Source of the DNA: Arthrobacter sp. RIT-PI-e
GTDB taxonomy: Bacteria; Actinomycetota; Actinomycetes; Actinomycetales; Micrococcaceae
Assembly (NCBI RefSeq): GCF_001187915.1
Contig: NZ_LGIU01000074.1
Span: 1-35,980 of the forward strand
Reading direction: 5' to 3'
DNA: 35,980 nt
Shown: positions 10,202-33,236 of the stretch, in pieces
Position numbering within the stretch: position 1 is the stretch's first letter
How the letters are laid out: each line of letters begins with the position of its first letter
Notes under the pieces: model-generated
Database searches by the model: none
What the model was told of the DNA's origin: nothing
The model's input: only the letters and a program-made list of their open reading frames with translations
Translations under genes and position numbers: made by a program

Positions 10202-11664
10202 ATGAGCACAACCCCACGCATCCGTCCCACCGACGGACGGACGTTCTTCGGCCACCCGCGCACGCTCGCGAACCTCTTCGGCGTGGAGCTGTGGGAACGC
10301 TTCTCCTTCTACGGGATGCAGGCCCTCCTCCTGTACTACATGACCTACTCGCTGGCGGACGGCGGTCTCGGGATCGGGACCACCACGGCCGCGGGACTGG
10401 TGGGTGCCTACGGTGGTGGCGTCTACCTGTCCACCATCCTCGGTGCCTGGCTGGCGGACCGGCTCCTCGGCTCCGAGCGCGTGCTGTTCCTCTCGGCGAT
10501 CGTCATCATGCTCGGGCACATCGCCCTCGCCGCCCTCCCCGGCGTCGCAGGGCTCACCGCGGGGCTGGTGCTCGTGGGTCTCGGCTCGGGCGGGCTGAAG
10601 GCGAACGCCTCCTCACTGGTGGGTACGCTCTACGCGCCGGGGGACACCCGGCGCGACGCGGGTTTCTCCATCTTCTACATGGGCATCAACATCGGCGCCC
10701 TGGTGGGACCCCTGCTCACCAATCTGGCGTGGGACGCCTTCGGGTTCCACGTGGGCTTCGGTCTCGCCGCCGTGGGCATGGCGGTGGGCCTGATCCAGTA
10801 CGCGGTCTCGCGGAAGAACCTGCCCGCCGAGGCCCACGTGGTGGAGAACCCGTTGCCGCGCGGCGCCCACCTGCGCTGGGCGGGCATCGCCGTCGGTGCG
10901 GTGGTGCTCCTCGCGGTGGTGCTCCCACGGGCCTGCTCCGTGCGGAGAACCTCGGCACCGTCATGGCCTGGACCGCGATCGCCGCGACCATCGCCTACTT
11001 CGCGGTGATCCTCTCCAGCCGGAAGGTCTCGGCCGTCGAGCGCCGGCGCGTTCTCTCCTTCATCCCGCTGTTCATCGCGAGCGCGGCGTTCTGGTCGCTG
11101 TTCCAGCAGCAGTTCACAGTGGTGGCCCTCTACTCCGAGAGCCGGCTGGACCGGAACCTCTTCGGCTGGGAGATGCCGCCCGGGATGGTGCAGTCCATCA
11201 ACCCGGTGTTCATCGTGCTCTTCGCCGGGGTGTTCGCCGCCGTCTGGGCGCGTCTGGGCACCCGCCAGCCCTCCTCCCCCGTGAAGTTCTCCCTCGGGCT
11301 GATCGTGATGGGTGTCGCGTTCCTCGCGTTCATCCCCTTCGCCGGCGGCGGACCGAACAGCACCCCGCTGATCGCGATCGCGGGCATCCTGCTCCTGTTC
11401 ACCTGGGCCGAGCTGTTCATCTCCCCCATCGGTCTCTCCGTGACCACCAAGCTGGCGCCCGAGGCGTTCCGCACGCAGATGCTGGCCCTGTTCTTCCTCT
11501 CCGTCTCGCTCGGTACCACGGTGTCGGGGATCCTCGCGGGTTTCTACTCGGCGGACAACGAGGTGCCGTACTTCGCGTTCAGCGGTATCACCGCGATCGT
11601 CCTCGGGGGAGCGCTCGTCGCCGGTTCCCCGGCCATCCGGAAGGCCATGAGCGGCGTCGACTGA
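10202..11664 (+). pseudogene. POT/PTR-family peptide MFS transporter, interrupted by a one-base frameshift
   Basis: Proton-coupled di-/tripeptide importer family (DtpT-like), inner membrane. The first part (from ATG 10202) carries the PTR signature ELWERFSFYGMQALLLYYM (about residues 30-48) and several membrane helices up to GIAVGAVVLLAVVL. The rest of the transporter, beginning PTGLLRAENLGTVMAWTAIA and continuing through the remaining helices to TAG-free ...KAMSGVD, is in another frame. Adding one C to the CCC at 10924-10926 restores a continuous 487-codon protein of normal POT length with no other defect. As written, translation would stop at 11008 after about half the helices. Sequencing error is the simplest explanation; a real inactivating or phase-variable indel is the alternative. 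Confidence 0.88.
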
Positions 11665-11707
11665 ACGAGGTACAGGCGAGAGAGCTGTTGCGTCCGTTCC
11701 TGCGGTA

Positions 11708-11760
11708 CCCCAGACTTCTACCCACCGGTAACTCCAGCCCGGGGACACCACAGTCTGGGG
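11708..11760. repeat. Long-range inverted repeat upstream of the acyl-CoA synthetase
   Basis: CCCCAGACT (11708-11716) and its exact complement AGTCTGGGG (11752-11760) are separated by 35 nt in the 114-nt gap between transporter and acyl-CoA synthetase, just before the ribosome binding site. It may be a terminator for the transporter, a two-site operator or a leader structure. Confidence 0.5.
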
Positions 11761-11778
11761 AAGATCGAAGGAGATCCT

Positions 11779-31349: not shown

Positions 31350-31391
31350 ACCCGGACGACGACGGCGCGAGGTGGCGTCGTGTACCCGTGA

Positions 31392-31787
31392 TCAGTCCCG
31401 TTGATCGATCCGGTGACCGAGCCGCTCGAGGTCGGCCTCGACCAGGCGGACATCACGGGCGAACTCGTCGTCGTCGAGCTCGATCTGGCGCACCGTGAAG
31501 ACCACCTCGGCACCCTCCGGGTGGGACAGGACGCGGACGGGGTTCGTCACCACTGTCCCGGACGGCAGCCTCACGTCGTGGTCCAGGACGCCGAAGCGGT
31601 TGCGCTCGACGAAACGGACCTCCACTCGGCCCATTGGCGATTCCACCAGCAGTGCGTCGCCGTCCCGGACCACCTCGGCCTGCGCGAGACCGGCGGCCCA
31701 GGCGGGCAGGTTCCCGACGTCCGCCGCGTACTCGTAGACGACCTCCGGCGACGCGCGGATGACTCGACTCACGTGCCGGCTCCTCAT
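31392..31787 (-). CDS. SRPBCC-family protein
   Basis: START/polyketide-cyclase-fold protein of 131 residues, cytosolic. It reads SRVIRASPEVVYEYAADVGN (typical SRPBCC first strand and helix), LPAWAAGLAQAE, VESPMGRVEVRFVERNRFGV and a long C-terminal helix. The family binds hydrophobic ligands and has many roles, so none can be assigned. The frame is open upstream to 32153, but that part lies antisense inside the cellulase-like gene. ATG 31787 gives the conserved start, and a CATGAT sequence 6 nt upstream may be its -10 box. It is convergent with the aminotransferase and downstream of the cellulase-like gene on the same strand. Confidence 0.85.
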   Translation of the reverse strand: MRSRHVSRVIRASPEVVYEYAADVGNLPAWAAGLAQAEVVRDGDALLVESPMGRVEVRFVERNRFGVLDHDVRLPSGTVVTNPVRVLSHPEGAEVVFTVRQIELDDDEFARDVRLVEADLERLGHRIDQRD

Positions 31788-31887
31788 GACGGCATCATGC
31801 GCCGGATCCGGTGGATGATCAAGCACACCCGGCAGGGGACCTACGGGTCCCCCGCGGAGGAGTCCGCGGTCTCCGGCCTGGTCGCAC

Positions 31888-33236
31888 TCACGATCGTCGC
31901 GGCGGTGCGTCGTGATCCTGATCGAGGAACAGACGATTGCACTGCTGCTGCAGGGTGATCTCGTCCCACATGGGGTGCTGCGGCGCAGCGTTGGAACAGA
32001 CGATCGTTCCCCAGGCACCGATCCGCACGGATTCCTCGACCGCACGCCGGCAGAAGGCTGCTCCGATCGGCCCGTCCTCGAAGTGGCTGGACAGTGGTGT
32101 GTAGCCGATCCAGCCCTCCCCGAACACGGTGGGGACACCGCGGTGCGCAGCATGGTCCGCAGCGACGTCGAGCCAGGTCCGCAGCTTCCCGATCATCTCG
32201 AGGTGGTGGAGTTGATACCGCTCGTAGAGGAAGAGGTCGAACGCTTCGCCATCGACCCAGTCCATGAAGTAGATCTCGGGTTTCCCCACGATCGTGGCGT
32301 CCATCTTCCACCCCACCGTCTCCGGGAGCACCCAACTGGTCGGTTCCGGCGCGCCGGGCCGCAGGAGGTCGGCGGCGTCGACGGCGTCGACCGGGAAATC
32401 CGCCAGCTCCCCGCGAAGATCGAAAGCCGCCGTCGCCTCGTCGAGCACACCGTAGACGTAGGGGTGTGTGACGAGAACATCGAGCTGGGCCGGGAGGGTA
32501 CGCATGGCGGCGACGGGCACATGCGCGTAGTTGACGGTCACGGGACGCTGCGGGTGCCGTCGGTGGAACTCAGCGAGGCCCCGATCCAGACGGGGGCGCA
32601 GGGCATCGAGGAGCACCAAGTCGTCGGACGGGTCGCAGGGAAGATCCTCGGTGAGATACCCGTACTGCACCTCGTTGTGGAGCTCCGTGAACGCGATGCG
32701 GTCCTCGAGTCCGTGCTCGGTGAGGAAGTCGACGAGATCGGCCTGTGCCCGCGCCAGCACGAACGCCCTGTCCTCCGGGGTACTACCCGCAGCGCATCCC
32801 ACCAGGCGCTGTCCGCGGAGAAGGCCGACGATTGCTGGTACTCCCACGAGGAGAGGATGACGTACATGTCACGACTCCTCAGCACCTCGAACAGGTTCAG
32901 GAGGTGCGCGCGGGCATCGATGACCGTCGGGGACACGACGTCGTACCAGCGGACGCGTTGGGCGTACTCCCCGCCGAGGCGGTCGAGCGTGAGCGACGTG
33001 GTGTCGAGGCCCGAGCCGAACAACAGGAACGGCATCGCGCAGATCCGCACGGTGTTGTAACCACGCTCAGTGGCTTCTTCCGCGGCCCGTGACAGATCAG
33101 CGAACCGCTCGTTCTCGCCCGTCCGCACGTACCAGGAGAAGTCCCACAGCGTGATCGTCAACCGGTGCGGCAGGTGCGGGGGGATGGCTACGGGGATATA
33201 AGGACCGGCGGAAGCAGTGGTCGGGTGATGTGGCAC
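31888..33236 (-). pseudogene. Cellulase-like (GH-A clan) protein, frameshifted
   Basis: Predicted TIM-barrel glycoside hydrolase of the cellulase-like family; no signal peptide. The first part, from GTG 33236, contains LPHRLTITLWDFSWYVRTGE, GYNTVRICAMPFLLFGSGLD and ILSSWEYQQSSAFSADSAWW then DALRVVP. The remainder, in another frame, begins PEDRAFVLARAQADLVDFLT and includes FTELHNEVQYG (acid/base Glu in NE), VTHPYVYG and VFGEGWIGYTPL (candidate nucleophile Glu). One missing C (complement of the GGGG at 32777-32780) restores VVPPEDR, which the family shows, and a 449-residue protein. It is probably a sequencing indel. TAGGAT ends 6 nt before the GTG (leaderless). It is divergent from the AraC regulator, its likely controller. 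Confidence 0.85.

Follow-up and report, generated by a model that had tools for sequence, protein, structure and literature searches.

The 35,980-nucleotide stretch analysed here (the window) is the complete contig NZ_LGIU01000074.1 of Arthrobacter sp. RIT-PI-e, one of 104 contigs (C31 in our numbering) of a 3.46 Mb genome that is rated 99.49% complete with a contamination estimate of 0.31%, and whose nearest named relatives are Arthrobacter. Its genes for glycerate kinase (glxK), phosphoglucomutase (pgm) and aldehyde dehydrogenase (ALDH) each hold a short stretch in which conserved residues are replaced, and several neighbouring genes are broken in frame. From comparison with related genomes, we consider it very probable that these anomalies are a patchy consensus error spread across much of the assembly, and not a biological feature. 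Ten congeners align to the window, over 13-27 kb each and at 66-85% DNA identity by piece. Three patches carry the signal within the window:

13683..14035, reverse strand: apparently corrupted patch in glxK (gene 13298-14506), holding 25 of 26 differences from the protein P0121.
15274..15410, forward strand: apparently corrupted patch in pgm (gene 14865-16502), with a 7-base C run at 15307.
17140..17245, reverse strand: apparently corrupted patch in the ALDH gene (16513-17880), with an 11-base C run at 17222.

A protein search with the glycerate kinase returned P0121, a 402-residue glycerate kinase from a 1853-base contig. It equals the window protein at residues 1-93 and 276-402 (220 flanking residues), and because of these identical flanks we take P0121 to come from the same species. 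The 182 residues between the flanks hold 26 differences, the one outside 13683-14035 being at 14226. Each is explicable by a single base (T>C in 8 cases, T>G in 8, A>C in 5, A>G in 2, G>C in 1, C>T in 1, and 1 ambiguous); the 25 unambiguous ones comprise 13 A>C or T>G changes, 10 A>G or T>C changes and 2 others, and 23 of them replace A or T by G or C (A/T>G/C). The commonest residue of 33 further listed relatives at these 26 positions is that of P0121 in 18 cases and that of the window in 2, and at 21 positions the window residue is present in none of the 33. Val to Gly at 13821, pointed out in the first-pass annotation of this DNA, stood up, since all relatives with data have V, as do 33 of 33 proteins. 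Judged from these alignments, a near-conspecific glxK free of the odd residues exists, and the window version is altered over one sharp-edged stretch.

The pgm patch shows 6 A/T>G/C and no G/C>A/T changes against the relatives G012, G003 and G006, and its replacements N148T, I173V and L180R are present in 0 of 13 other congeners. Asn to Thr at 15307 had been flagged earlier, and every relative with data indeed carries N there. The ALDH patch contains V>G, V>G, L>P, S>P, V>G and D>A at residues that are invariant among relatives with data. Two of these, D>A at 17144 and V>G at 17153, bear out the Asp to Ala and Val to Gly changes suspected near 17143-17154, again against every relative with data. 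An undamaged near-identical ALDH was sought by protein search and was not found, the best other match being 89% identical.

The first-pass annotation had described a window-wide pattern of A>C and T>G changes, and had proposed to count substitution types at invariant sites. We did so at codons invariant in at least seven relatives, a test in which glxK did not have enough distant relatives. The pgm and ALDH patches together gave 9 changes in 61 invariant codons, all of them A/T>G/C and none G/C>A/T, whereas the window outside the three patches gave 33 A/T>G/C against 34 G/C>A/T changes. The pattern is therefore one-sided inside the patches and balanced outside them, and its window-wide extent does not hold. 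A>C and T>G changes are frequent in the patches, but the real bias is A/T>G/C generally, transitions included. As far as these codons and the P0121 comparison tell, the A/T>G/C signal is local to the glxK, pgm and ALDH patches.

The patches are also marked by runs of G or C. Runs of at least 7 bases number 18 in 233 kb of the window genome versus 1, 1 and 3 in G012, G003 and G006, for each of which about 238 kb was counted, and three of the four such runs in the window lie inside the three patches (at 14024 in glxK, 15307 in pgm and 17222 in ALDH). The sole run outside them, seven C bases at 28335-28341, has one A/T>G/C change nearby and is perhaps real or perhaps a mild patch. Genome-wide, C8 or G8 words (overlaps counted) reach 538 in the window genome versus 0-175 in 14 congeners, and this is the highest count when all 22 other genomes (0-179) are considered. 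Within 100 bases of a run, outside the run itself, we counted 30 A/T>G/C and 8 G/C>A/T changes, against 885 and 817 elsewhere (p = 0.0009). The new base equals a neighbouring base in 46 of 58 A/T>G/C changes in patches versus 501 of 865 elsewhere, and the change lies in a run of at least 4 in 20 of 58 versus 69 of 865, on a patch list that includes one C38 interval without any chosen gene over it. The direction of neighbour copying in glxK, inspected by eye only, is mixed.

To look beyond the window, we fetched ten more regions of its genome, about 197 kb in total, beside G012, G003 and G006; nine were usable, as C20 dropped out for lack of common codons. Scored as A/T>G/C changes per 150 bp, the densest clusters hold 12 changes (contig C38, in pheT) and 10 (C8, in acs), both without any G/C>A/T change, while the densest reach 6 in G003 and fewer than 5 in G006 and G012. 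Smaller clusters lie on C94, C17 (in uppS), C9 (in a UvrD-type helicase), C10 and C72. The C9 helicase (L177:10416-10569) is a UvrD-type protein with an HRDC domain, and its motor domain is hit by a patch as well as by a frame break, both in the style of the window. In a leave-one-out test at codons invariant in 13 congeners, the window genome has changed 16 of 510 codons in acs, 22 of 511 in pheT and 7 of 407 in pgm. These 45 unique replacements involve 32 A/T>G/C base changes and 1 G/C>A/T change, as opposed to 20 and 28 in the other 39 gene-genome pairs jointly (Fisher p = 8e-8). Damage ignores gene importance, with patches in acs as well as in pheT and uppS, which we take to be genes of essential type.

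Besides the patches, the window contains frame breaks, a lost start codon and one further candidate patch:

10915..10935, forward strand: frame break in a POT-family transporter gene (10202-11664).
13125..13150, forward strand: frame break in an AMP-binding acyl-CoA ligase gene (11779-13302).
32770..32790, reverse strand: frame break in a PF12876 glycoside-hydrolase-like gene (about 31888-33236).
17878-17880, reverse strand: lost start codon of the ALDH gene, R versus M in P0002 and other listed relatives.
28035..28065, forward strand: possible small patch in a PF02230 esterase, with D>A, A>P and M>L adjacent.

One-base losses had been proposed at 10924-10926, 13134-13136 and 32777-32780, and all three were borne out. 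Near 10924, one extra base relative to the window is found in 6 of 6 relatives with data, a Pfam profile search splits PF00854 (POT transporter) over two frames, and tblastn switches frame at 10924/10927. Near 13134 the extra base is found in 8 of 8 relatives with data, and the tblastn alignment changes frame at about 13143. Around 32777 there is no alignment with any of the ten fetched relatives; here PF12876 profile positions 1-101 lie in one frame and 266-353 in another, this second part being weak (18.9 bits, below cut-off), and the PDB entry 3gyc is a distant relative of the first part. These breaks are located in G/C runs of 3-4 bases, which are common at about 70% G+C. A possible fourth loss at 20233-20235 found no support, since the ATG at 20236 matches an ATG in G006 and G009 and no frame break is needed there. 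Likewise, the CTG at 17862, earlier read as a lost ATG start of ALDH, is an internal codon, and the true loss is at 17878-17880, the window having RTAATLLTDK against MTAATLLTDK in P0002. As for the esterase, the Asp to Ala change noted at 28041 is seen against four relatives with data that share D, but the gene is fast-changing and the support weak, so that a small patch there is only possible.

Two oddities concern the records used for comparison. P0123 (a glycerate kinase) and P0266 (a POT transporter) are Arthrobacter-like proteins labelled Vibrio cholerae, with longest contigs both of 185,716 bases, and their source record is probably mislabelled or contaminated. G009 is 89% complete, with its matches on one 3.48 Mb contig; its pgm match begins only at residue 183, and its pheT falls into two parts, divided at residue 513 (loci G009:C1:151442-152530 and 893917-896557). 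The G009 breaks probably reflect a different kind of frame error in the assembly of that genome.

Several observations weigh against a consensus error. All of our evidence is comparison of assembled sequences, and the read-level cause is therefore unproven. P0121 is known as a protein only, comparison with an undamaged copy covers one gene, and at positions 173 and 224 (2 of the 26) the residue unusual for the family belongs to P0121, not to the window. For the frame breaks the evidence comes from relatives, because a search for a conspecific POT transporter found none; P0241 (93% identical) differs over its whole length. A tblastn scan found frame breaks in 5 of 89 scored genes of the window genome, 2 of 108 in G003 and 0 of 105 in G006, with one short open reading frame, genes without another intact relative, window-genome rows that were absent (21) or partial (4) and G006 rows that were absent (5) or partial (2) omitted. 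The excess (5 of 89 versus 2 of 213) is small, with doubtful cases on both sides, as the gene-start breaks (C24 in the window genome and the two in G003) could stem from start extension; in-frame stops in the same scan show no excess (2 in the window genome, 7 in G003 and 3 in G006). Taken in bulk, the window has a change spectrum close to that of its genome's other contigs: A>C and T>G account for 73 of 451 window changes versus 294 of 2099 on those contigs (reference G012, G003 and G006). Clusters of at least five changes in the window genome number 34 for A/T>G/C but also 26 for G/C>A/T, the largest of the latter holding 9; the window genome is the outgroup of the three-relative set, hence the many clusters in both directions. 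When change types were shuffled over its own events, the number of clusters was not significant: 11 windows with at least 6 A/T>G/C and at most 1 G/C>A/T were seen against a shuffle mean of 7.4, 61 of 500 shuffles reached the observed number, and only the maximum excess of 12 was unusual (2 of 500). Moreover, acs and pheT were chosen for their clusters, and the leave-one-out test shows extremeness rather than how frequent such genes are. Several patches are not G+C-extreme in their G012 counterpart either, lying at the 37th percentile for pgm, the 26th for uppS and the 43rd for the fadD break. We keep our verdict, which is based on the comparison with P0121, on the leave-one-out test against 13 congeners and on the counts of G/C runs.

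Four biological or compositional explanations were set against it. MutT deficiency causes almost only A:T to C:G transversions, and a MutT-less lineage that has lost 8-oxo-dGTP sanitation could account for the 13 of 25 unambiguous glxK differences that are A>C or T>G, as well as for the 19 such changes in its acs, pheT and pgm versus 6 in the 39 other gene-genome pairs. However, 10 of the 25 glxK differences are transitions, the excess is limited to patches while the rest of the window is balanced in direction, and the sparing of 220 flanking residues in glxK would not be expected. NUDIX genes, which the first-pass annotation had proposed to look for as mutT homologues, number 12 versus 11-16 in four relatives, and include a MutT-like copy on C38 and a MutT1-like copy on C10 with the Nudix box intact, although both pieces score below full-length NCBIfam cut-offs; a strict Nudix box is present in 5 of 11 NUDIX genes examined, the twelfth (on C28) being outside that count. 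As far as PMC12273949 treats the matter, MutT hydrolyses 8-oxo-dGTP and mutT deletion is transversion-biased; the present case resembles the mutators described there in its A>C and T>G excess and is unlike them in its clustering, its many transitions and its retained MutT-type genes. We regard such a history as extremely improbable, and the earlier preference for consensus error over a mutator holds in view of P0121, the short patches, the hits in essential-type genes and the MutT-type genes present.

Ordinary decay of glxK, ALDH, the transporter and other genes under relaxed selection would explain the broken frames, the missing start and the many changes at conserved residues in neighbouring genes. 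It is very hard to reconcile with the sharp edges of the glxK damage, its 23 of 25 A/T>G/C changes and intact flanks, with similar damage in pheT and uppS, or with the undamaged near-conspecific P0121, and we give it very little weight. GC-biased gene conversion or clustered mutagenesis acting on short stretches in vivo would be expected to leave short, sharp-edged A/T>G/C tracts, and the direction fits. On the other hand, the tracts here are accompanied by G/C homopolymers, family-foreign residues and the frame break in the C9 helicase, essential-type genes are hit too, and the densest clusters in the three relatives are half as dense. It is highly unlikely, in our judgement, that a process in vivo writes such tracts in this lineage, essential-type genes included, with three relatives lacking equally dense ones. 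Since the assembly could be an isolate or a metagenome bin, fragments of other strains or genomes might also have been stitched into the contig, as a mixed population or binning chimera. Against this, the window residue occurs in 0 of 33 relatives at 21 of 26 glxK positions and the counted acs, pheT and pgm residues in 0 of 13 congeners; patch residues are absent from the relatives examined, and therefore no donor of that kind fits. With a contamination estimate of 0.31% in addition, a chimera seems most improbable.

How a consensus error of this kind could arise may be outlined as follows. Over stretches of about 100-350 bases, the reads behind the consensus would probably have been scarce or of poor quality, most likely Illumina data from G+C-rich DNA that is difficult to sequence. 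There, A and T would have been called as G or C, often matching the adjacent base, as a consequence of which G/C runs would lengthen and occasionally one base would be lost. We infer low coverage, the platform and, at signal level, phasing or a collapse of quality combined with A/C and G/T cross-talk. Cross-talk between the A/C and G/T channels, suggested at first as the cause, may contribute but is too narrow alone, given the 10 of 25 glxK differences that are A>G or T>C transitions and the equality with neighbouring bases. The sections of PMC3334598 on sequencing error cite A-to-C as the most frequent substitution error, tie errors to G-rich upstream sequence and low-quality regions, and state that divergent reads can yield an erroneous consensus; compared with the context-dependent Illumina errors described there, stretches of 100-350 bases are altered here and transitions to G or C are also frequent. 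The part of PMC4872057 on coverage links GGCNG/CCNGCC motifs to loss of quality and coverage. The G+C-rich context is a likeness to such dips, yet the motif itself is common at 70% G+C.

If this is correct, a genome with good completeness and contamination scores probably still holds many false residues, frame breaks and G/C runs, as these scores are blind to such errors. Work on pseudogenes, mutation spectra or catalytic-site variants could be misled if it draws on this genome. The combination of G/C runs of at least 7 bases with one-sided A/T>G/C changes at invariant codons, both relative to congeners, suggests a simple screen for G+C-rich assemblies.

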